A stretch of DNA of 53,598 nucleotides from Candidatus Aegiribacteria sp. (GCA_021108005.1 JAIORS010000069.1:1-53598); one strand, 5' to 3'. Shown: positions 12,076 through 28,029, numbered from the stretch's first letter. The notes: a model not told the origin generated them from the letters alone. Numbers and translations: made by a program.

Positions 12076-12104
12076 TTGACTCGTGAGAAGATATATTGAA
12101 TAAT
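12076..12104 (+). promoter_or_regulatory. sigma-70-like promoter of the envelope operon
   Basis: TTGACT (12076-12081), a 17-base spacer and AATAAT (12099-12104), 57 bases before the first start codon at 12161. This is the best promoter match in the divergent intergenic space and would drive the whole 12.2-22 kb operon. Confidence 0.6.
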
Positions 12105-12160: not shown

Positions 12161-12763
12161 ATGAAATACGGTACACTTTTTATTCTACTTTTATTGTTTG
12201 CTACTGTTCAGGCTGGATCTCTTCCATTTTCCCGTGCCGGCGTTCTGGATTGTCCTGATGCATACGTGCTTCAGCATACTGAAATAGAAATTGGGCTTGC
12301 AGCCTCGGCATATTCTGTCGAAGACTCCACTGGTGTTTCGAACAGTGAATTTATGGTTACCGGACACCTTGACATCGGGCTTTTTCGTTACGGTCAGATA
12401 GGAATCTCATTTCTGGGCGACGGCGGAGTCGTTGGTAACATGAAAGTTGCTGTACTGCACGAAGGAATTTCGGTTCCCGCATTTGCGATCGGCCTTGAGA
12501 ATATTACAGGAGAAAAGTACGTTGACTGCTTCAAGATTGATTCAGCCGGTGTGGAAATAATGTACCCCTACGATCATTCACAAAATTGGTCAGCATACGG
12601 TGTTGTATCCAAAGATCTCAGTTTTCTGCTGGGTATTCCCGCTACGGTTAACCTTGGTATTGGAATAGGGCGCTTTGTGGGAATAGTGGATTCCGGCGCT
12701 ATGGGTATTGGAAGTTCTGTGGCTCACGGACTCTTCGGATCGGTTGTTTACAGTTTCTATTGA
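12161..12763 (+). CDS. outer-membrane beta-barrel-like protein, N-terminal part (frameshifted)
   Basis: First gene of the envelope operon, with GGAGAA before the ATG and a signal peptide (MKYGTLFILLLLFATVQAG). The mature part alternates polar and apolar residues with many aromatic strand ends (GHLDIGLFRYGQIGISFLG, VNLGIGIGRFVGIV), as in outer-membrane barrels. The frame closes at 12763 just after GLFGSVVYSFY. One frame over, the sequence continues smoothly as SIEQDGRDLNLGASYE, so a single extra base in the TTT near 12752 seems to split a protein of about 306 aa. This may be a sequencing error, a real mutation or a programmed +1 shift. A role as the outer-membrane partner of the downstream TolQR/TonB-like complex is inferred from position. 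Confidence 0.65.
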   Translation: MKYGTLFILLLLFATVQAGSLPFSRAGVLDCPDAYVLQHTEIEIGLAASAYSVEDSTGVSNSEFMVTGHLDIGLFRYGQIGISFLGDGGVVGNMKVAVLHEGISVPAFAIGLENITGEKYVDCFKIDSAGVEIMYPYDHSQNWSAYGVVSKDLSFLLGIPATVNLGIGIGRFVGIVDSGAMGIGSSVAHGLFGSVVYSFY

Positions 12764-13082
12764 ACAGGATGGACGCGATCTAAATCTCGGAGCCTCATAC
12801 GAGATCAACAAACACGTTATTCTTCAGATGGCATGGGCTGAGTTCGAACAGACGATATTCCCCGCAGAAAACCAGAACAAAGCCGATATCATGCAAAATT
12901 CAAAGGTTACGATTGGAATTCAATCAAGATTTGGTCCCATTTTAGGTGCCCAGAGGATTGTCCTTGAACGTGAACAGCAGCGAATTGAAAGAGCAAGGGG
13001 TCGACTTGAGGAACTCGAAGCTCGCAGAAGAGCTGCAGAGGCCGAACTCCAGAGACTCCGGGATCTTCTTGAGAACCGCTGA
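12708..13082 (+). CDS. outer-membrane protein, C-terminal part with coiled-coil tail (frameshifted continuation)
   Basis: This frame opens at an ATG at 12708, but meaningful sequence begins near 12754, where it takes over from the preceding frame. It reads QDGRDLNLGASYEINKHVILQMAWAEFEQ (two probable membrane strands) and then a last strand, KVTIGIQSRFGP. The end is a charged heptad-like coiled coil of about 45 residues (EREQQRIERARGRLEELEAR...LQRLRDLLENR). A barrel followed by a C-terminal periplasmic coiled coil suggests contact with the inner-membrane complex or the TPR protein encoded next, 20 bases downstream. It is probably not an independent gene. Confidence 0.55.
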   Translation: MEVLWLTDSSDRLFTVSIEQDGRDLNLGASYEINKHVILQMAWAEFEQTIFPAENQNKADIMQNSKVTIGIQSRFGPILGAQRIVLEREQQRIERARGRLEELEARRRAAEAELQRLRDLLENR

Positions 13083-13102
13083 AGAAACGGTTTATTAATA
13101 AT

Positions 13103-16100
13103 ATGAATATCCATTCATCATTAATAGTACTGGTATTGTTTACATGCTCTTTTGCTACATATGGTCAGACGGAGAACGATTCCTTCGAGACTGCCGAGCC
13201 GGCAGATACGACCGAAGTTACAAGTGTTCTCCTGGAAAGAGCTTCATTGGAACTGTCTGAACTCGAAGTTCAGATACTCAGAGAAGAAGAGCGGCTTGAA
13301 CGGATTATGACCGAGCTGATTCAACTTAGAAGGCAGCATGCAATGCTGGCCAATGCTGAAAGCGCTTTTCTTCTCGGTGAAGAACTCTACACGTCCGGTT
13401 CGATAGTATGGGCAAGAGACGCATACAAATCGATAATTGACAATTTTGCCGGTTCGATCTACTACACTGACGCGCTGTTCAGGCTTGAGCTTATTGCATT
13501 CGAACTCCAGGATTATGAAGGAGCGATCGAGTATTTCAACAGCCTGTTGGAAGCCAATCCCGCTTTTGAATTCATCGATCTGGCATACATAGCTGCTGGC
13601 CTGTCAACATACAATCTGGGGGACTTCTCAGAATCAAGGCTGTTCTACAACAAAGTACTTCCCTCAAGTGAATATTTTATACTGTCGGAATACCTGGAAG
13701 CAGTTTCGTACGTTGAAGAGGGCAATATTGATGCTGCCATGGTTGCCCTCCGTGCGATAATCGATGATACCGGAGTTTCTTCGGATAACGCTGACCTTGC
13801 GGACAGAGCCAGGATCGCCCTTGCGCAGATACTTGTTGATAAAGAGGAAGAATACGAAACTGCCCTTGAGCATTACTCCAGAGTATCATCCTTCAGTTCC
13901 TATTACGATGTCGCCATGCTTGGAAAAGTCTGGACATTGATGCGTCTTGAGAAATATCAGGATGCGTACAACCTTGCTGAACAGGTAATTGAAGATGTTC
14001 CGAATTCGGAACTGATATCGGAGTTTGAACTTGCCCAGGCTAATTGTGCCCTGGGAGCTGAAGACCTGGCTATTGCCATCAGGATGTACGAAGATCTTCT
14101 CGCCGAGCACAGCGAAACTGAGGATTACTACGATCTTTTCCTTTCAGGATCATCCCTTACCCATGAGGAGTACCAACTTGAAAGGGAACGCCTTGATAGA
14201 ATCAGACTGGGGCTGGCTGAACTTAAGGAGGAAGCCTATACCCAGGGCGACATGGAGCTTGTTGAGATGATAGAAGAAGAAGAAGCTTTTATGAGGGAGC
14301 TTTTCACAGAAATCAGTTATCTCGAGACAGTTCTTTCTCTGCCGGTTGAAATGGACACCGAGGATCTGGAGCGTGAACTGAGCATTCTTATCCAGCGGAG
14401 CAAAAGCAATACGGAGGTTCTTTCCCTTGCAGCAGGAGAAGTGCATGCACTGACGGAATCCGCGGGAACCGAACAGGACCGCCAGGACCTTATCGAGCTT
14501 GAAAAGGAAATCGAAAGAATAAAGCTTTCTCTTCAGGATCTCTCCTCGAAGTTCGGGGGAGGGATGACTGCTGAACATGACTGGGTTCAGGAAACCCAGT
14601 ACGGAATAGCCGTGGCAACATTCATGGAACGCGAACTGAGACGCGATTCCATCGATTATCTTGGTGCTTATTACAGGAACAGGATACAGGAAGCGCTGGA
14701 AAAGGGAGATTCTCTTGAGGCGGTAGCGCTTGACAGTAAAAGAACGCGCGAGATCAACATCCTTAATAGAAGAATAGATGAATCAGCCATTGAGTGCGCG
14801 GGGCATTTTGAGGAATATCTGGCCAGCTACCCGGATTCAAGATTTATATCCGATGTTCTGGTCAGGCTGGCTCAACTTTACTATGACATAGATAATCTTC
14901 AGCACAGCGAACGGCAGGCGGCAGCAGGAATAGAGGAATTCATACCGGAGGATTACTCCCGATCCATAGAACTTTATCAGCATATTCTTACTGAATTTCC
15001 CGGTAGCGAAGTCGAGGACATCGCATTCTATTCACTTGGATACTGCCTTGAATCGATGATGGATTTCGAGGGATCAGTTGAGAATTACAGAAATTTGCTG
15101 CAGGAATATCCTGAAAGCGACCTCGCTGCTGAATGCAACATCCGCGTGGGCAATTATTACTTCGATATAATCCAGTACGATTCAGCCCTGGTTTATTTCC
15201 AGAATATTCTGGATTATCCCAGCTGCAGCCCGAATCTTTACCAGCATGGTCTTTACAAGCTTGGCTGGACTCAATATCTGACCAAGGATTTCAGGCAGTC
15301 CGTCGCGACCTTCGCTTATCTGCTCAGGGATGACCAGGCCATTGACAGTCTGGGAATACAAAGAAAGGGTGATATCAGGATCCTTAACGAAGCTCGGGAA
15401 TACATGGCGTACGATTTCCTCGAAATGCATGACATGTCTGTTACTGCTATACCTGCTGCTGTCAGCTTTCTTACAGATTTCGACGATTCAGTTACTACTG
15501 TAAGTGTTCTTGGAAAAATGGCAGAGGTTTCTTCAGAAATGACCAACTGGGAAACCTCGATAGAGGCGTACAATGCCCTGCTTTCCGAGAATCCGTACTG
15601 TACCGAAGCACCTGTTTTTCAATTAAGGATCGCACAGGCTTACGAAGAGCTCGGAGAATTCGCTCTTGCTGCTGATGCCCGCGATGCGCTTGTTTCCACT
15701 TATGGAGAGAACAGCGACTGGTACAACAACGTGGGAGATGAATCTGTACTGGCCCTGACCGACTCCCTGCGAGGCTCTTCATTCGAAGAAGCGATACAGT
15801 ACTACCTTGAGCAGACGGTAACTTCAAAGGATGATCCCATTTTGTATACGCAGGCCAACATAGCTCTAATTGAGAGAATAGAGAATTATCTTCAGCAGTA
15901 TCCCTCTTCACCCAAGGCTTACGAGTATCAGTTCCACCTTGGTGATGCTTACTACCATACCGAACAGTACGTAAAGGCTGGGGATGTGTATTTCGAAGTT
16001 GCGATGGACAGCAGTTCCTTCCAGAGACAGGAAGATGCTTTCAACAATGCTTTTTCATCCTATCTCATCGCTTACGAAGAAGTACCGGGTGTGGACAGCC

Positions 16101-17659
16101 TGACATTGAGGGGAAATCTGCGTGAAACGGCTCTTACTTACTCCGACCTGTTCCCCGATGACGAGAATGTCTCGTTCTTCCTGTGGGCCTCGGCTCCGAA
16201 ATTCTACAACGCAGGGGAGTACGAAAATGCCAGGGAGATGTTCAAAATAATCTATAACAACTATTCCGGTTCAGGTTACGAAGCGCGTTCAGCCAAGTTC
16301 ATCGCTGATTCCTACCAGCAGGAAGAACTGTACGCTGAAGCTGAGGAATGGTACGGACTGGCATCACAGGCCGCTGCCATCAGCGGAGAGGATCTTGGCG
16401 CTGACATCGAGTATCTGGCTGCTTCTTCAGCGTATAACGATGCTGCTACGCTTGCCGAAAGCGAAAATACGGATGATTTGCTGGCCGCAGCGGCAAGATG
16501 GGAGCAAACAGCACACGAACACTCCGGGTCAGATGTAGCTCCGGTGGCACTGTTCGATGCTGCTGAAACCTATGGTAAAGCTGGCTCCATCGATAACGCG
16601 GTAAGGATGTTCCAGGAGCTTGCCACATCGTATCCCGCCAACGAAAATGCTCCGGGCGGCCTGCTTCGGGCTGCGTACCTTCTAAGGGAGGATGAGCAGT
16701 ATATAAGGGCCGCACAGCTGTACCTTGAAGCCTATAATACTTTCCCCGGTGCGCCGGATATGAACGCAGCTCTATCCAGTGCCGCACAGTGTTACGAAGA
16801 CGGCGACAGACAGGATCTGGCTATCGGGGTTTACCAGCAGATCGCGTCTGAGGGCGCCGGAACTGCAGGCGTTGTGGTCGAAGCGTACGCAAAAATCGGA
16901 GAATACAATTACGATATAGGGAATTATTCGATTGCGCAGAGCAATTTCGAGAATTGTATTTCGATCTACGATCAGTACAGAGATGGACGGATAACCTATC
17001 CGGCAATGTCAGCATACCATGTTGGTGAGATATTCGCAGCAGATTATTATGCTCTGACGTTTACAAATACTGATAATGTAGAATACAAAACACAGCTTTT
17101 CAATGGAACTGTTGCGAATTATAACAGAACATTCTCGTACCTTGATGATGATTACGTGTTCAGAGCCGTTCTGAAGATCGGTAAGCTACAGGAGGATTTT
17201 GCGAACACAGTAGGTTTCATGGACCCGCCGGAAGGCTACTCACCTGAGGATGAGGAGGACTTTTACACTACTCTCATGATTGTGTATGACGATTATATTC
17301 AGCGTGCCATAGGAACATATAGAAACGGTCTTCAGCTTGCGGTATCCAACGGTATTCGAACCGAATATACGGATACGATAGCTACTAATCTCGATCTGCT
17401 TCTTCCCGGAGCTGGCGCTGAAGTAGGCTATTCCTCCTCAACGACGATTATTGAGGAACCGGCAGCAACTCCGGACAGTACCGGTACTGTAATTGATGAC
17501 GGGTTTTCTCCTGAAACCGGTGACGATACCGGTGAATCCGGAACCACAGATGATTCGCAACTTCCCGATTCTGGCGATACGGAAATCCCCGCAGTTGAAT
17601 CTGAATCCGATGAACAGTCGGATGACGGTGGAGGGGGGTGCTTCCTGTGGCCCTTCTAA
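13103..17659 (+). CDS. 1518-aa periplasmic TPR-repeat protein
   Basis: Signal peptide (MNIHSSLIVLVLFTCSFATYG), then a coiled coil (about residues 45-95, LSELEVQILREEERLERIMTELIQLRRQ), then tetratricopeptide-like repeats nearly to the end. Typical units are YEGAIEYFNSLLEANP, DFEGSVENYRNLLQEYPESDLA and FNNAFSSYLIAYEEVPG, which resemble the TPR_6 type in CpoB/YbgF, BamD and GltE/AglT. A second coiled stretch lies near 455-500. The end is an acidic, threonine-rich low-complexity region (about 1455-1505) closed by GGGGCFLWPF. No enzyme motif is seen. It sits between an outer-membrane protein and TolQ/TolR genes, so a periplasmic scaffold linking the two membranes is the likely role. There is no obvious Shine-Dalgarno before its ATG, suggesting dependence on upstream translation. 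Confidence 0.8.
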   Translation: MNIHSSLIVLVLFTCSFATYGQTENDSFETAEPADTTEVTSVLLERASLELSELEVQILREEERLERIMTELIQLRRQHAMLANAESAFLLGEELYTSGSIVWARDAYKSIIDNFAGSIYYTDALFRLELIAFELQDYEGAIEYFNSLLEANPAFEFIDLAYIAAGLSTYNLGDFSESRLFYNKVLPSSEYFILSEYLEAVSYVEEGNIDAAMVALRAIIDDTGVSSDNADLADRARIALAQILVDKEEEYETALEHYSRVSSFSSYYDVAMLGKVWTLMRLEKYQDAYNLAEQVIEDVPNSELISEFELAQANCALGAEDLAIAIRMYEDLLAEHSETEDYYDLFLSGSSLTHEEYQLERERLDRIRLGLAELKEEAYTQGDMELVEMIEEEEAFMRELFTEISYLETVLSLPVEMDTEDLERELSILIQRSKSNTEVLSLAAGEVHALTESAGTEQDRQDLIELEKEIERIKLSLQDLSSKFGGGMTAEHDWVQETQYGIAVATFMERELRRDSIDYLGAYYRNRIQEALEKGDSLEAVALDSKRTREINILNRRIDESAIECAGHFEEYLASYPDSRFISDVLVRLAQLYYDIDNLQHSERQAAAGIEEFIPEDYSRSIELYQHILTEFPGSEVEDIAFYSLGYCLESMMDFEGSVENYRNLLQEYPESDLAAECNIRVGNYYFDIIQYDSALVYFQNILDYPSCSPNLYQHGLYKLGWTQYLTKDFRQSVATFAYLLRDDQAIDSLGIQRKGDIRILNEAREYMAYDFLEMHDMSVTAIPAAVSFLTDFDDSVTTVSVLGKMAEVSSEMTNWETSIEAYNALLSENPYCTEAPVFQLRIAQAYEELGEFALAADARDALVSTYGENSDWYNNVGDESVLALTDSLRGSSFEEAIQYYLEQTVTSKDDPILYTQANIALIERIENYLQQYPSSPKAYEYQFHLGDAYYHTEQYVKAGDVYFEVAMDSSSFQRQEDAFNNAFSSYLIAYEEVPGVDSLTLRGNLRETALTYSDLFPDDENVSFFLWASAPKFYNAGEYENAREMFKIIYNNYSGSGYEARSAKFIADSYQQEELYAEAEEWYGLASQAAAISGEDLGADIEYLAASSAYNDAATLAESENTDDLLAAAARWEQTAHEHSGSDVAPVALFDAAETYGKAGSIDNAVRMFQELATSYPANENAPGGLLRAAYLLREDEQYIRAAQLYLEAYNTFPGAPDMNAALSSAAQCYEDGDRQDLAIGVYQQIASEGAGTAGVVVEAYAKIGEYNYDIGNYSIAQSNFENCISIYDQYRDGRITYPAMSAYHVGEIFAADYYALTFTNTDNVEYKTQLFNGTVANYNRTFSYLDDDYVFRAVLKIGKLQEDFANTVGFMDPPEGYSPEDEEDFYTTLMIVYDDYIQRAIGTYRNGLQLAVSNGIRTEYTDTIATNLDLLLPGAGAEVGYSSSTTIIEEPAATPDSTGTVIDDGFSPETGDDTGESGTTDDSQLPDSGDTEIPAVESESDEQSDDGGGGCFLWPF

Positions 17660-17700
17660 CAAACACAGTCAGCTGTGGATCCGTGGGAACTGCAAGAAGA

Positions 17701-18147
17701 ATGATTCTTCTTTTCGTTGTTGTTACAATGGCCGTCACCGCTGTTTATGCCCAGGAAGGCGTAGAAGAAAGTGAAGGAGCAAGCTGGGAAGGGGGAAGGC
17801 TCGTTCTTGAGGAAATAACTATCAGAGGAGAGCTTCGAACTCCCCAGGCTCTTTTCATGATGCTGAAGGCTACCCCGGATCTCAGCAATGTGCTTTTACA
17901 AAGAAGTTTTATTGAAGATATCATCAAACCCGTCTATCCAGGCGCATTCGCAGATGAACCAGATCTTGGAGCCGGGCGTGAAATGATAGTTTTACCTATG
18001 TGGGTAAGATACGGCTCAGTTGCGGTACTTGGTGGTATATCAGGATATCGATATTATCAGGGAGACGACGAACAGGGGCTGGTTTTTGGTGTAGTTGCTG
18101 GTCTTGACCTTATTGGTAATCTTATACTTGATCTTGTTGGAAATTGA
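17701..18147 (+). CDS. small exported membrane-associated protein of the envelope operon
   Basis: A protein of unknown function. From the ATG at 17701 it has a signal peptide (MILLFVVVTMAVTAVYA) and 148 aa. A GTG at 17638 in the same frame, just after a purine-rich run, would overlap the TPR gene and add 21 residues. The mature part has EEITIRGELRTPQALFMMLKATPDLSNVLLQRSFIEDI, then two hydrophobic stretches (YGSVAVLGGISGYRY and LVFGVVAGLDLIGNLILDLVG) that may form a hairpin in the inner membrane. It lies 31 bases before the TolQ-like gene. The LEEITIRGELRTP segment recalls short conserved proteins in gliding/energised-envelope clusters, but I cannot name the family. Confidence 0.6.
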   Translation: MILLFVVVTMAVTAVYAQEGVEESEGASWEGGRLVLEEITIRGELRTPQALFMMLKATPDLSNVLLQRSFIEDIIKPVYPGAFADEPDLGAGREMIVLPMWVRYGSVAVLGGISGYRYYQGDDEQGLVFGVVAGLDLIGNLILDLVGN

Positions 18148-18178
18148 AACTAGATTGTTATTCGAGAGGAGATCATAG

Positions 18179-19042
18179 ATGAAACGGATAACACTTCCAA
18201 TTTTACTCGCTATTTCAATCCTTCTGATAGGAGGATCCCTGTTCGCACAGCAGCCGGTAGAAGCTGCTGACAGTACGGCAACCGATTCTACCGCGGTTGA
18301 TTCAACCGCCGTTCAGGAGGATCCGGTTGCACCTGTAGAAGAAGAACCGGTTGAGCCGGAAATTGTTGAAGCTGCCGAGATTGAAGCTGAGGAGCTTGAA
18401 AAGGGAGGTCTGCTTTCCGACATGGCTGCGTTCTTCCGCGATGGTGGACCGGCGATGTGGGCTATTCTCGTATTCCTTGCCGCAGGTATAGCGATAATAG
18501 TTGAACGATTCATTTTCCTTTTTGGTATTGCGGATATGAAACCTGAAAAATTCATGGGCAGGATAGCTGAACTGATAAGAAAGGGCAGTATTGAAGGCGC
18601 AATCGCCTCCTGCGCGGATAAGAACGCTCCTCTTGCCCGAATAATAGAAGCAGCTCTCAGGAATTACAGGAATACTGAACGTGACATACAGAATGCTGTT
18701 GATGAGATGGCACTTGCCGAACTGCCACGGCTCAATGCCCGTACCGGGTATCTGGCAATGCTTGCGAATGTTTCAACCATGGTTGGTCTCCTGGGTACCA
18801 TTTTCGGATTGATTGCCGCTTTCGAATCGGTTGCTGCCGCTGATCCCGCAGAGAAGAGTATAATGCTCGCGAACGGTATCTCTATGGCAATGAGTACAAC
18901 CGCATTCGGACTGATTTCCGCTATACCGCTTCTGATAGCACACTCTTTCCTTACAGCCAAGACCGATGCTCTTATAGATGACATAGACAGGTACTCGGTC
19001 ATGGTCATCAATATGCTTGCCCAGGCCAGGAAGGAAGGCTAA
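18179..19042 (+). CDS. TolQ/ExbB/MotA-family proton channel protein
   Basis: Inner-membrane proton channel subunit that, with ExbD/TolR, turns proton motive force into motion of a TonB-like protein. It has a cleavable-looking signal (MKRITLPILLAISILLIGGSLFAQ), an unusual acidic, Ala/Thr/Pro-rich periplasmic segment (about 25-75), then the ExbB core: TM1 at about 95-115 (MWAILVFLAAGIAIIVERFIF), a cytoplasmic loop, TM2 and TM3 with NVSTMVGLLGTIFGLIAAF and STTAFGLISAIPLLIAHSF. Total 287 aa, longer than TolQ (about 230) because of the N-terminal extension. GAGGAG precedes the ATG. The stop and the next start overlap (TAATG). Similar extended forms occur in FCB bacteria. Confidence 0.9.
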   Translation: MKRITLPILLAISILLIGGSLFAQQPVEAADSTATDSTAVDSTAVQEDPVAPVEEEPVEPEIVEAAEIEAEELEKGGLLSDMAAFFRDGGPAMWAILVFLAAGIAIIVERFIFLFGIADMKPEKFMGRIAELIRKGSIEGAIASCADKNAPLARIIEAALRNYRNTERDIQNAVDEMALAELPRLNARTGYLAMLANVSTMVGLLGTIFGLIAAFESVAAADPAEKSIMLANGISMAMSTTAFGLISAIPLLIAHSFLTAKTDALIDDIDRYSVMVINMLAQARKEG

Positions 19043-19602
19043 TGGCACAAGCAGCAACTGGTAGAAGTCATAGAATCAGGCATTCGCCGGAGCTTGATCT
19101 CCTCCCGGTTATGAACCTGTTCTGCGTGATAATACCATTCCTGCTACTGAGTGCGTCATTTCTGGAGATATCGATCATTGAGATGTCTCCAACCGAAGGT
19201 ATCAGTTCGGGAGCCGGAACTACCAGTCTGGCCCAGTCGGAGGAACAGCAGCTTCAACCCAAAGTAATCATAACAAATGAGGAAATGTTCCTGGGTACAG
19301 TATTCGGAACCAGATCCATAGGAAGAGTGTATCTTGAGGAAAGAGGCGGGGAAATGGTAAACAGCTACGATTATGATTCTCTAGCTGAAGCTCTTGAAGA
19401 ATTCAGGGAGGATATTAACGAAGCTTTCCCGTCCATTCCGGTTCACAAGATAACAATACTTACCGTCGATGATGTCCGCTACGACAATATCGTGATGGCA
19501 ATAGATGTATGCGCTGATCACGGCTTTGATCAGCCCGGTCTTCAGGTGGCAGCGTATAACGTGCTTCAGAGAGCGATTGCTGCCGGAGCTGGAGGTGAGT
19601 AA
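19042..19602 (+). CDS. ExbD/TolR-family protein, first copy
   Basis: A biopolymer-transport stator subunit, 186 aa, with a short cytoplasmic N-terminus, one membrane span (about 20-45, LLPVMNLFCVIIPFLLLSASFLE) and a periplasmic C-terminal domain ending in a TolR-like fold (VPVHKITILTVDDVRYDNIVMAIDVC). The usual membrane Asp of ExbD appears to be the Asp of SPELDLLPVMN, but the L-D-x-x-P-x-x-D pattern is not complete: the second acidic position is Asn. This suggests that the copy is specialised, while the next gene keeps the acidic residue. It is co-translated with TolQ by a 1-nt overlap. Confidence 0.85.
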   Translation: MAQAATGRSHRIRHSPELDLLPVMNLFCVIIPFLLLSASFLEISIIEMSPTEGISSGAGTTSLAQSEEQQLQPKVIITNEEMFLGTVFGTRSIGRVYLEERGGEMVNSYDYDSLAEALEEFREDINEAFPSIPVHKITILTVDDVRYDNIVMAIDVCADHGFDQPGLQVAAYNVLQRAIAAGAGGE

Positions 19603-19604
19603 AC

Positions 19605-20144
19605 ATGAGTAGTGCGCCAACCAAACGGCATCTTCCTCTCATGCTCGGATACAAAAAAAGCAAGGCAGTTATAAGGGGTAAGGATAAGAAAGTAACACTG
19701 AATCTTACATCAATGATAGATATGTTCACTATTCTTGTAGTTTTCCTGCTTAAGAGTTACAGCGCGGAAGGGCAGATTGTTACCGTAAGTGACGCACTTA
19801 CGTTGCCCGAGTCCAGAGCAGAGCAAAAAATTGAGCTGAATCTGGAGATAATTGTGACCAATGATGCTATAGTCGTAGACGGAGAACCTATTGTATTCGT
19901 TGACGAATCAATAATGCGTGAAGGCAATCCCATTCCAATCCTTGTGGATAGACTTTCCGACCATTTGGAATATACCAGGCAGATGCGTGGTATAACAGAT
20001 ACGGAGGAAATGAAGGTCAACATTCAGGGAGACGTTGCGACGCAGGCTATTCTTCTTCAAAGGGTCATGAGCAGCTGCGCCCAGGCTGGTTACGCCACCC
20101 AGAATCTGACCGTAATCAAGGTGGAAGGTGGCGATGAAGAATGA
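19605..20144 (+). CDS. ExbD/TolR-family protein, second copy
   Basis: A second ExbD/TolR-like stator subunit, 179 aa. The N-terminal segment is basic (KKSKAVIRGKDKKVTLNL), followed by SMIDMFTILVVFLLKSY, in which the conserved proton-carrying Asp of ExbD/TolR is present. A periplasmic domain follows (about 60-179), with VIVTNDAIVVDGEPI-type strands and a C-terminal TolR-like helix-strand pattern. GGAGG lies within the end of the preceding gene. The ATG of the next gene overlaps its stop. Two different ExbD-type subunits per channel are also found in the Agl motor of myxobacteria (AglQ and AglS). Confidence 0.88.
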   Translation: MSSAPTKRHLPLMLGYKKSKAVIRGKDKKVTLNLTSMIDMFTILVVFLLKSYSAEGQIVTVSDALTLPESRAEQKIELNLEIIVTNDAIVVDGEPIVFVDESIMREGNPIPILVDRLSDHLEYTRQMRGITDTEEMKVNIQGDVATQAILLQRVMSSCAQAGYATQNLTVIKVEGGDEE

Positions 20145-22012
20145 CACCTGAAAAGGAAAAAGCAAAAAAAGTACTCGCGATTGCCATTATGCAGGATGGC
20201 AAAATTGTTAACAAGCTGATTCCAGGCAGGGAATCCGTTAGGATTGGTACCGGATACAATAATAACATTATTGTTGAGGGAGCCAACCTCCCTGACAGTA
20301 TGCTATTCATTACACCTGGCGAAGATACTCAAACCTGGATTCTCAGGCTTTCAGACGATATGGACGCTTCAATCGAATCCGGGGACGGCGCGGTTCTCAA
20401 ATTCGCTGATATGCGGGATCTGGGAATATTCCCTGTTGACCCTGATGGATTATATCTTCTCAATATCAAATATCTGGACCAGGGGCAGATCAATGTAGGC
20501 CCATTTCTGATCCATTTCGGGTTCATTGTTCCCCCGGAGAAGCCGAAAGCTAAACCGCAGGAAAAAATAGAGAAGAAGGTTAAAGCCGCAAAGGCTGCGA
20601 GTATAAAGGCGGAAAAACCCGATAACAGGGTTCTTAAAATTACCATTGAAGATACTAATGGAAAAACAGAACTTGTACCCAACGCTGGTTTAATGACAGT
20701 TGGCGAAGCCGACTACAACACCGTAACGGTGAAGAACATTAAACTTCCAAGAATTCATACTTTACTTGAGCCTCATAATAGCAAGTATCTTTTAAGATTA
20801 ATCCCCGGAATCAAAGGCGGAGTAGAAGTTAAAGGAAGTGTCATACCTTTCCATACACTAATTGAGCGCAACCTCATGGAGAAGGAGAAACAGGGAGATT
20901 CCTACACATGGGTTTTCGATAAGAATGTGAGTGGCGTCTTCACCCTTGGAAATACAGAGGTATTCTTCAGTTTCGAAGAACCTCCGAAAGTTCTGAAAAA
21001 ACCTGAGCCCAAAGCCGAACTTCCCAGGAAGAAGTACGTTGCCCCTGAATACGACTGGGACAATTTTGCATCCAGACCTCATGATGGGCTGGCGATGAAG
21101 GGGAACCGTGAGGAATCAAACAGAATTGCGGTAGTATTCGGGCTTGGTCTTGCGATTGCCCTTCTAACAGGCTCGGTCTTTGACAGATTTGTTACCGTGA
21201 TCCGAGAAACCAAAGAGCAGAAGCTTCGAAGAGCTCCAACCGCCAGGGTAGCTACACTTGCCAGCCAGACCAGACAGACCGAGGGTGTTGGCGAGGAGAT
21301 AGTAACAGACATGACCATAGGCGAGGAAACTGTTGAAGCTGGTTCCGGAGGCGGCGGAGGAGCCGGAAGCGGTGAATCAAATGGTGTATCTGACGGTACG
21401 GCCGCAGGTGAAGCCGTTCTTCAGAGCATAGGGTTTGCCGCATACGGAACCGGAAGCACCGGCGGCTCCGCAGGCATCGCAAGTGATTTGCAGTCGGCTG
21501 CGGCTACCGGAGCCGGGCTCGCGTCCGGAGGAGGCGGGCAAGCAGTGATTGCAGGAGCCGGCGGAGGCGGTTCAGGGGGTATCGGTGGTCTTATTGGTAG
21601 TGGCGGCGGCCCCAGCGCAAGTATTGAAGGAGTATCCTCCAGCGAAGTTGAAGCAGTTCACAGGGCAGCTGAAGTATCCTTCTCCACCCATTCATCGAGT
21701 TCAGAAATCGGTGTTCAGGGTCGCAGCATGACAGATATCAGGCGGAAGATCAATATGATCAACATGAGGGTAAAGCGTGCTTACGAAGATCTTCTGAGAA
21801 ACAATCCCTCGGCCGGTGGGACTATCAGTATAAGTTTTTCAATTACACCCAGCGGATCTGTTGTTGGAATAAGTGTTTCAGCAGCTGGAAGCTTGTCCTC
21901 ATTACAACCTGCTGTCAGGGCTGCAGTACAGTCCCTGAGCTTCGGAGCATCAAGTGAACAGGTTGAGAATATTCCCATGAGCGTACCAATGAACCTGGTG
22001 CCGCCGGAATAG
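20141..22012 (+). CDS. AgmX/PglI/GltG-like TonB-family protein with two N-terminal FHA-like domains
   Basis: A 623-aa energy-transducing protein. Two related N-terminal cytoplasmic modules (about 10-130 and 165-290) each have an FHA-like strand set (VRIGTGYNNNIIVEGANLP; MTVGEADYNTVTVKNIKLP) and end in a segment like INVGPFLIHFGFIVPP or FTLGNTEVFFSFEEPP. One membrane span follows near 330-345 (IAVVFGLGLAIALLTGSVF), then a very Gly/Ser/Ala-rich periplasmic linker (about 395-510) and a C-terminal TonB-like domain (about 525-623, VKRAYEDLLRNNPSAGGTISISFSI...). This order of FHA, TM, Gly-rich linker and AgmX/PglI C-domain matches GltG/AgmX of the myxobacterial gliding complex. Its start overlaps the second ExbD gene by 4 nt. 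It probably spans the periplasm and contacts the outer-membrane partner. Confidence 0.82.
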   Translation: MTPEKEKAKKVLAIAIMQDGKIVNKLIPGRESVRIGTGYNNNIIVEGANLPDSMLFITPGEDTQTWILRLSDDMDASIESGDGAVLKFADMRDLGIFPVDPDGLYLLNIKYLDQGQINVGPFLIHFGFIVPPEKPKAKPQEKIEKKVKAAKAASIKAEKPDNRVLKITIEDTNGKTELVPNAGLMTVGEADYNTVTVKNIKLPRIHTLLEPHNSKYLLRLIPGIKGGVEVKGSVIPFHTLIERNLMEKEKQGDSYTWVFDKNVSGVFTLGNTEVFFSFEEPPKVLKKPEPKAELPRKKYVAPEYDWDNFASRPHDGLAMKGNREESNRIAVVFGLGLAIALLTGSVFDRFVTVIRETKEQKLRRAPTARVATLASQTRQTEGVGEEIVTDMTIGEETVEAGSGGGGGAGSGESNGVSDGTAAGEAVLQSIGFAAYGTGSTGGSAGIASDLQSAAATGAGLASGGGGQAVIAGAGGGGSGGIGGLIGSGGGPSASIEGVSSSEVEAVHRAAEVSFSTHSSSSEIGVQGRSMTDIRRKINMINMRVKRAYEDLLRNNPSAGGTISISFSITPSGSVVGISVSAAGSLSSLQPAVRAAVQSLSFGASSEQVENIPMSVPMNLVPPE

Positions 22013-22056
22013 AAAATAAGTGACGGAGGATTTTGCGTCCATCATTAATAAAGAAA

Positions 22057-22080
22057 AACCCCGGGCATTTGCCCGGGGTT
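22057..22080. terminator. bidirectional terminator between the envelope operon and groEL
   Basis: A perfect 10-bp stem AACCCCGGGC/GCCCGGGGTT with an ATTT loop, 45 bases after the plus-strand operon and 27 bases after groEL on the minus strand. On the minus strand it is followed by TTTCTTTATT, a good U-rich tail. On the plus strand the tail is CTCTCTTATT. Confidence 0.88.
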
Positions 22081-22106
22081 CTCTCTTATTAACGGTAGAA
22101 CGTCTT

Positions 22107-26172: not shown

Positions 26173-28029
26173 ATGTACAAGTATTTTGTTGTTACAAGCA
26201 TTCTTTTTCTAGTCGCAGGCATTGCTGGTGCAGATACGACGCAGATCAGCTGGCGTAATGGCGGAGGAGTTCCGGGCCCTGTTTTGACTTGGTGGGGTCA
26301 CACTTTCTATCAGTCATCCGGCATATGCTTCTGGTGTGACGGTGATTCGAGTTTCCCCAAGCTTCTTCTATCGGCTGCAGAGAGAACTCTAATCGATGTA
26401 TCAAATGACGAACCCGTTTCCGTTTTTTCCTCTGATATCGACGGTGACGGAGATGAGGATGTCATAGCTCTCTTCGGTTACATGGGCGGAACTCAACAGG
26501 TACTCTGGTGGGAGAATCTCGATGGGGCAGGCTCCTCATGGGACGAACACGTGATCGATATTGGGTTTCCTTTAGGTGAATCCGTGGTTTCTGGAGATAT
26601 CGACGGCAACGGTACAATGGATGTCGCTGCCGGTGGCCGAGATGAATCCGTGTGCTGGTGGTCCAATACCGACGGTACTGGAACCCAATGGGAAGAACAC
26701 CTCGCCTGCGATAAGGCCGAATGGGTCGAGTGTGCTGATATGGATGGGGATGGTGATACCGATTTTGCTCTGGCTTCATGGTGGTTCGACACTTTCCTCT
26801 GGTGTGAGAACATCGATGGAATCGGGGAAACCTGGGTGGAACATGGTATCGCCCATAACATGCTAGGTGCCATATGCGGGAATCCATGCGACATAAACTC
26901 CGATGGATACCTGGATTTCATTGGACTGGAATGTCTCAATAATAAATTGTACTGGTGGGAAAACGAGGACGGCACAGGTACGACATGGATAGAGCATGTC
27001 ATCAGCACTTCTATAGTGAATCCACAGTCAATGCATGCGGGAGATATCGATGGTGATGGTGATTTCGATGTTGCCGCAGTATCCGCAACGGATGACGATG
27101 TTGTCTGGTTTAGGAACGACGATGGACTTGGAGGTGCATGGACGGAAGTAGCCGTTGCTCACCTCAGTATACCTTGGGGCAATGCACTGTTTGATGTTCA
27201 TACCGCTGATCTCGACGCGGATGGTGACATCGACATCTGTTCCCTGGTTCATTGTTCAGGCGGATGGGTTTTCTGGTGCGAAAATATGGATGGGATCGGA
27301 GAGAGCTGGGCCATACACACATTCGCACCCGCTGCAAATTCTCCATGGTCAGTTCATCCGTCCGATATCAATGGAGACGGAAAGAATGACCTGGTTACTT
27401 GCAAGTTGTCCGGAAAAATAACATGGTGGGATCTGAGTGAGGACGGTTATTCATCCGATGGTTATCTTGAATCCAGTATTCTTGATACCGATGTAATCTC
27501 GACCGACTATCAGACCCTCACATGGCAATCCGAGGTCCCTGCAGGAACGGTACTCTACTTGCAGATAAGAACTTCAGATGACCATACCGAGATGGGTAAC
27601 TGGTCTGAACCACTTTATACCTCCCCTGTACAGGTGGGTGCTGTGGTGGGAAACGGGGAGCAATACTTCCAGTACAGAGTTAACATGGAAACTACGGATT
27701 TCTGCGTTACCCCTTGGCTTTCCTTCGTACAGCTGACCTGGGATGAGCTGGGAATCGGCGAAGGTGACCTAGAGGACATGAGAATACTCTCGGTTTCCTC
27801 CAATCCCCTCTCAGACCTCGCCTCAGTTATACTGACTTGTGAAAATCCGATGACCATGGCACTTTCCGTATATGATCTCTCGGGAAGAAGGGTCCTTAAC
27901 GTTCCGGAGAAACAGTACGAAGCTGGAATCAGCACTGTTCGTATTCAGAATATCCCTCCCGGTATCTACATTTGCGTGCTGAATGGTGAGGATTTTCATG
28001 AAAGCCTTAGGTTCGTCCTGACTGAATAA
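26173..28029 (+). CDS. secreted VCBS/FG-GAP repeat protein with T9SS-like C-terminal sorting domain
   Basis: A 618-aa exported surface protein. Signal peptide MYKYFVVTSILFLVAGIAGA with GAGG before the ATG. Seven propeller blades each carry a calcium loop (DIDGDGDED, DIDGNGTMD, DMDGDGDTD, DINSDGYLD, DIDGDGDFD, DLDADGDID, DINGDGKND), with repeated W-W-E-N-x-D-G-x-G-x-x-W blade motifs in between. After a sandwich domain (about 430-525) comes a C-terminal region (about 535-618) with NPLSDLASVIL, ALSVYDLSGRRV, GISTVRIQNIPPGIYICVL and a final FVLTE. This is the typical type-A sorting domain of the Por/type IX secretion system. It is the only complete gene in the insertion and is unrelated to hutH. 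The ligand is unknown. Confidence 0.85.
   Translation: MYKYFVVTSILFLVAGIAGADTTQISWRNGGGVPGPVLTWWGHTFYQSSGICFWCDGDSSFPKLLLSAAERTLIDVSNDEPVSVFSSDIDGDGDEDVIALFGYMGGTQQVLWWENLDGAGSSWDEHVIDIGFPLGESVVSGDIDGNGTMDVAAGGRDESVCWWSNTDGTGTQWEEHLACDKAEWVECADMDGDGDTDFALASWWFDTFLWCENIDGIGETWVEHGIAHNMLGAICGNPCDINSDGYLDFIGLECLNNKLYWWENEDGTGTTWIEHVISTSIVNPQSMHAGDIDGDGDFDVAAVSATDDDVVWFRNDDGLGGAWTEVAVAHLSIPWGNALFDVHTADLDADGDIDICSLVHCSGGWVFWCENMDGIGESWAIHTFAPAANSPWSVHPSDINGDGKNDLVTCKLSGKITWWDLSEDGYSSDGYLESSILDTDVISTDYQTLTWQSEVPAGTVLYLQIRTSDDHTEMGNWSEPLYTSPVQVGAVVGNGEQYFQYRVNMETTDFCVTPWLSFVQLTWDELGIGEGDLEDMRILSVSSNPLSDLASVILTCENPMTMALSVYDLSGRRVLNVPEKQYEAGISTVRIQNIPPGIYICVLNGEDFHESLRFVLTE

Follow-up and report, generated by a model that had tools for sequence, protein, structure and literature searches.

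The window analyzed here, a 53,598-nt stretch that makes up contig C69 (JAIORS010000069.1) of a 3.2-Mb metagenome-assembled genome of Candidatus Aegiribacteria sp. (GCA_021108005.1; G000), carries a seven-gene operon on its plus strand (positions 12161-22012) that is a member of the "core complex" class of Agl-Glt/Nfs systems. The operon most likely encodes a proton-driven motor in the inner membrane that acts across the periplasm on an outer-membrane complex. Membership in the class follows from an AglR-type protein, two different adjacent ExbD/TolR proteins, and a transducer that is GltG-type by architecture, although its score does not reach the curated GltG cut-off. The family to which the operon belongs was placed in Candidatus Fermentibacterota (Aegiribacteria, Hyd24-12).

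The original prediction, made from the DNA sequence alone, had described the genes in order as an outer-membrane protein, a tetratricopeptide repeat (TPR) protein, a small protein, a TolQ-like protein, two ExbD proteins, and a last protein with two FHA domains, a transmembrane (TM) helix, a Gly-rich stretch and a TonB-like end. All seven are present in that order and on that strand, the first as a barrel protein and the third as an exported one. Pfam identifies MotA_ExbB (3.7e-26), ExbD twice (8e-9 and 1.8e-10), TPRs (1.6e-24) and, weakly, TonB_C (0.003). The claim that this is an Agl/Glt-like machine outside the myxobacteria is supported by the AglR-type clade, the GltG and AgmX-tail profile matches, and the GltF-like gene presented below.

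The motor, its transducer, and the proteins of the outer-membrane side

The TolQ/AglR-type motor subunit is encoded at 18179..19042. When the TolQ profile was run on the Myxococcus-like genome G336, AglR was found at 8e-61 and a second motor followed with 2.5e-48; the strongest hit among the other TolQ/ExbB-type proteins was 6e-20. We took G336 as Myxococcus-like because it has a full-score GltG, and its AglR, AglQ and AglS have the published lengths of 245, 162 and 194 residues. Two maximum-likelihood trees, with genomes outside Fermentibacterota as outgroups, placed the TolQ of the window in one AglR-type clade (100/99) with AglR, the second motor of Myxococcus and the motors of many other families; this clade stands apart from TolQ and ExbB. 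Thus, the best matches are not to plain Tol-Pal or ExbBD-TonB, the outcome on which the original prediction was to fall. Within this clade, seven AglR-type rows, six of them from Myxococcota, form a subclade of their own (100/100; the AglR clade below), and Fermentibacterota lie on a separate branch. Profile searches of the PDB matched the motor to TolQ/ExbB only and returned nothing useful for the two ExbD proteins. The N-terminus of the motor subunit is signal-like and is followed by an acidic, Ser/Thr-rich extension (18179-18420); the Ton-type ExbB of the same genome shares both, and most homologues elsewhere have neither.

By position and profile, ExbD1 (19042..19602) is AglQ-like and ExbD2 (19605..20144) is AglS-like. 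In M. xanthus, the AglQ D28N substitution abolishes proton conductance, motility and sporulation (PMC3858216), and both AglQ and AglS are described as having the aspartate (PMC9389320). Taking AglQ Asp28 as residue 28 of the G336 protein, the equivalent residue of ExbD1 is Asn25 in the window and Asn in 20/20 relatives, and ExbD2 retains its aspartate (Asp39, TSMIDMFTILVVFLL). Elsewhere, in other phyla and Myxococcota, ExbD1 has Asn, Ser or Gly at 38/48 loci and Asp at 10/48, and the ExbD2 aspartate is present at every locus where it is readable. This count takes loci with an assignable ExbD1 and excludes L209 and L242, where the first ExbD found is ExbD2-like. Seven of the ten Asp-bearing ExbD1 loci fall within the AglR clade, and on the TolQ tree the Asp label needs 4 changes, compared with 9.3 in shuffles. 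A TPR or FHA/TonB gene was detected beside one of the ten Asp loci and beside 31 of the 38 others, several loci being cut by contig ends. No report of the ExbD1-Asn/ExbD2-Asp pattern was found within the literature searched. From these residues we infer that the motor may run on one proton site.

The transducer (20141..22012, 623 aa) was recognized by profile and by predicted fold. The NCBIfam GltG model matches it at 4.4e-12 (45 bits, cut-off 650), in its Gly-rich and C-terminal part, and the AgmX/PglI tail model at 1.4e-8 (35 bits, cut-off 40). Its AlphaFold model has two N-terminal beta sandwiches (20165-20530 and 20618-20980), a TM helix (residues 323-343; 21107-21169), a disordered Gly-rich linker (about 21323-21625) and a confident TonB/TolA-like C-terminal domain (21728-22000). 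Among the best Foldseek matches, FHA domains predominate (probability up to 1.00, E 1e-3 to 0.1), and TolA and TonB C-terminal domains are also listed. Pfam finds no FHA domain in the protein; what stands of the two FHA domains originally predicted is a predicted FHA-like fold, and in neither beta domain can the Arg and Ser that usually bind phosphothreonine be recognized. Myxococcus GltG has the same layout, and its first FHA domain is canonical, with GR and SRIH motifs. These motifs are absent from the first domain of the window protein, and the second keeps the invariant His only. The architecture thus matches that of GltG, and phosphothreonine binding would be doubtful. Equivalence with Glt proteins is supported for GltG and GltF; for GltJ/AgmX, which has the tail match alone, it is unsupported, and for the TPR protein GltE and GltI are no more than candidate counterparts. 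An AgmX/PglI (GltJ-like) tail above the cut-off (2.3e-15) does occur elsewhere in the genome (L118:9636-10922, contig C139), in a seemingly exported TPR protein without FHA that has counterparts in several relatives.

The small exported protein (17638..18147), whose start codon lies somewhere from 17638 to about 17701, has no Pfam match. We built a profile solely from the small genes of four operons of other phyla; it detects the small proteins throughout Fermentibacterota (3e-9 to 1e-4) and also Myxococcus GltF (2.2e-5; both among 1707 open reading frames). The small proteins and GltF have in common a core, I-x-G-x(I/L)-x-x-P...R...F, which in the window reads EITIRGELRTPQA followed by RSF. 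These similarities support the small protein as a probable distant relative of GltF. Luciano et al. found gltF limited to Myxococcales and Bdellovibrionales (PMC3169522), and a GltF-like gene here would extend GltF past its published range. According to PMC9389320, Faure et al. drew a comparison between GltF and a TonB box.

The first gene encodes the barrel protein, and its reading frame is broken in the present assembly. The N-terminal part, with a signal peptide, lies at 12161..12763, and the C-terminal part, which ends in a 40-residue helix, at 12708..13082 in another frame. Comparison with four close relatives reveals a 20-nt deletion after about position 12747, either a mutation or an assembly error. 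The gene is unbroken in 20/20 relatives (about 309-326 aa). Profile searches find homologues in operons of other phyla (L252, 1e-51; L258, 1.3e-50; L244, 1.7e-33); genomes with such operons are G071/G218 and G158, and a locus of G181 has a weaker homologue. A model of an intact homologue has ~12 strands and a C-terminal helix at low confidence (predicted local distance difference test [pLDDT] 58); its best PDB matches, FapF, NanC and porins, support a predicted barrel and no more. The TPR protein (13103..17659, 1518 aa) is exported, has an N-terminal coiled coil, and stands in a GltC/D/E-like position. Loci L252 and L258 have two TPR genes in place of the single one in the window. The C-terminus of the TPR protein, GGGCFLWPF, is found in most close relatives as well as in the window and is missing from other genera; this tail reaches into the start of the small gene.

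Several points weigh against reading these genes as an Agl-Glt/Nfs machine. The GltG score is far below its cut-off, and low complexity may help a match that is confined to the Gly-rich and C-terminal part. The FHA assignment comes from a model with a predicted template modeling score of 0.28 (domain pLDDT about 80-88). The similarity of the TPR protein is generic: its GltD match of 1e-46 is unranked against other TPR proteins. An ExbD1/ExbD2 heterodimer is hypothetical, as is one of AglQ and AglS (PMC9389320), and the Fermentibacterota machine is a prediction from sequence.

The mechanism that we propose for such a motor starts from a TolQ pentamer around an ExbD1/ExbD2 pair. With Asn at the equivalent position in ExbD1, the only path for protons would be through Asp39 of ExbD2. 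The TM helix of the transducer would dock on TolQ, by analogy with the AglR-GltG contact detected by two-hybrid in M. xanthus (PMC3169522), and the Gly-rich linker would span the cell wall. At the outer membrane, the TonB-like end could then pull on the TPR/barrel complex and on the GltF-like protein, whose conserved strand would offer it a natural binding partner. The FHA-like domains, on the cytoplasmic side, could regulate.

Operon structure and conservation

The genes are tightly packed, with most junctions overlapping or almost touching. The TPR and small genes overlap by 22 nt, the start codon of the latter being uncertain; the TolQ and ExbD1 genes have 1 nt in common; a gap of 2 nt separates ExbD1 from ExbD2; and the ExbD2 and transducer genes overlap by 4 nt. 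A strong, two-way terminator-like hairpin (22054..22083) lies between the operon and a convergent groEL. These tight junctions, the closing hairpin and a gene order kept in 20 relatives bear out the prediction that most of these genes form one operon, which had been drawn from overlapping starts. A promoter-like site on the plus strand (TTGACT-17-AATAAT, 12076..12104), 56 nt 5' of the first start codon, is a consensus match only, and promoter-like sites in the operon region are not more frequent than in shuffles.

Genes and order are identical in 20/20 relatives inspected, from several genera; in one (L058), the last gene is cut by the contig end, and a separate phylum-wide search found it. 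The FHA-TonB gene was found in 38/42 Fermentibacterota genomes searched, and in 24/24 of those of good quality (completeness at least 90%, contamination at most 5%). Conservation of content and order is far beyond chance, and with the gene in every good genome the operon is a core feature of the phylum. Phylum-specific patterns scanned over contigs matched Fermentibacterota and one Alistipes locus. Beyond the phylum, the order TPR, small, TolQ, ExbD1, ExbD2, FHA/TonB recurs in many families, which gives a conserved parts list for a widespread envelope machine.

In four genomes of other phyla (L114, L198, L203 and L205), the operon lies directly upstream of aspS, which suggests an old synteny kept by vertical descent; it does not hold at the window locus. 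In L053, L055 and L056, a gene for a 117-122 aa protein that is mostly a TonB-like end directly follows the FHA-TonB gene. In other relatives, a comparable short gene is located elsewhere.

What the motor drives

Across most of the wider family, one axle subunit does not have the aspartate without which the gliding motor fails. Since a motor subunit thus lacks a proton-binding residue essential to gliding, the motor probably drives an outer-membrane job other than gliding, and we favor outer-membrane transport or surface assembly. Two questions arise: whether a TolQ/ExbD-type motor can turn on one proton site, which is testable, and whether the second acidic site is a feature of the gliding lineage.

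One such job would be type 9 secretion, all or part of which the operon might power in bacteria that have SprA but no GldL/GldM. The genome encodes SprA (406 bits, cut-off 200), as do nearly all relatives, and GldL and GldM profiles, which are narrow models, find none in the phylum. The SprA-like translocon (L225:2824-8415, 1864 aa) is on contig C38, and the operon and sprA are therefore on different contigs; the neighboring genes resemble those for LptF/LptG permeases and for type IV pilus/type II secretion ATPases. In the window itself, an FG-GAP protein (26173-28029) has a weak Por_Secre_tail-like match (21.6 bits, cut-off 27), and the match of the TPR protein to PorW/SprE is also weak (23 bits, cut-off 250). 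Outside the phylum, SprA is present in 24/47 motor-positive genomes and in 37/201 others (p about 1e-5, kinship ignored), and SprA status on the TolQ tree takes 2 changes, compared with 14.3 in shuffles. However, SprA is absent from 23 of the 47 motor-positive genomes, the motor is absent from 37 of the 61 SprA-positive ones, and shared ancestry of the motor and SprA lineages could yield the same pattern. Because the phylogeny of the organisms is uncontrolled, we do not accept the co-occurrence as proof, and we consider the link to type 9 secretion unlikely. A fuller version is less likely again: that in Fermentibacterota and other SprA-bearing, GldLM-less phyla type 9 secretion is driven by a single-proton-site Agl/Glt-type motor (ExbD2 Asp, ExbD1 Asn), the motors of myxobacterial gliding being acidic in both axle subunits. 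If true, the link would identify what powers secretion in phyla with no known power source.

That the operon is a Tol-Pal or Ton paralogue for ordinary outer-membrane maintenance or nutrient uptake we regard as improbable. The superfamily is common to all these motors, the transducer has a TonB/TolA-like C-terminal fold, and the TPR protein scores above the cut-off of the YbgF/CpoB model. However, contig C58 of this genome encodes a full Tol-Pal system (TolQ, TolR, TolA, TolB, Pal and CpoB) and contig C225 has a TonB-dependent receptor gene followed by ExbB, ExbD, ExbD and TonB, which makes the Agl/Glt-type operon a third motor. Identity with Tol-Pal was rejected because the operon is without TolB and Pal and its TolQ is outside the TolQ clade; identity with Ton, because that TolQ is outside the ExbB clade and the operon has no TonB-dependent receptor.

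Gliding in the manner of Myxococcus Agl-Glt, one of the uses offered in the original prediction, is the weakest reading and very improbable: the parts are shared (AglR-type TolQ, GltG-type transducer, GltF-like protein and outer-membrane barrel), but nothing favors this use of them (no search aimed at the other gliding-specific genes, gltA, B, H, I, J and K, or at MglA/AglZ control was made), the TolQ is outside the AglR clade, Asn takes the place in ExbD1 of the AglQ Asp28 that gliding requires, core complexes are also present in bacteria for which gliding is not known (PMC3169522), and the Ca. Aegiribacteria genome paper lists genes for pili and flagella and no gliding.

Comparison with known systems

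In M. xanthus, the Agl-Nfs system of spore-coat transport likewise mounts a transducer complex of this kind on an Agl motor, and what it moves is a surface polymer rather than the cell (PMC3858216). Agl-Nfs uses the same AglRQS motor as gliding (PMC3858216); nothing here points to spores or a coat. With the M. xanthus AglRQS-Glt machine, the Fermentibacterota operon shares the AglR-type TolQ, the AglQ/AglS-type pair, the GltG architecture and a GltF-like protein; it differs in having Asn for AglQ Asp28, a TolQ outside the AglR clade, and all its genes in one operon.

Core complexes outside the myxobacteria have been known since 2011, from Gammaproteobacteria and Fibrobacter (PMC3169522), and they share with the present operon the arrangement in one operon, the AglR-type motor, the two ExbD proteins, the TPR proteins and the GltG-type transducer. 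The class is therefore not new; what is new is the phylum, the barrel and GltF-like genes as members of the operon, and the one-site axle pattern. The motor-linked vWA force transducers (PMC12204202) likewise group a TPR gene with a TolQ-like one and two dissimilar TolR-like genes. In contrast to the Fermentibacterota protein, with its TonB/TolA-like end and FHA-like cytoplasmic domains, those transducers end in a vWA fold. Finally, GldLM of type 9 secretion and Bacteroidota gliding is also a proton-driven motor of the 5:2 type that acts on the outer membrane, whereas the Fermentibacterota subunits are of the TolQ/ExbD type.

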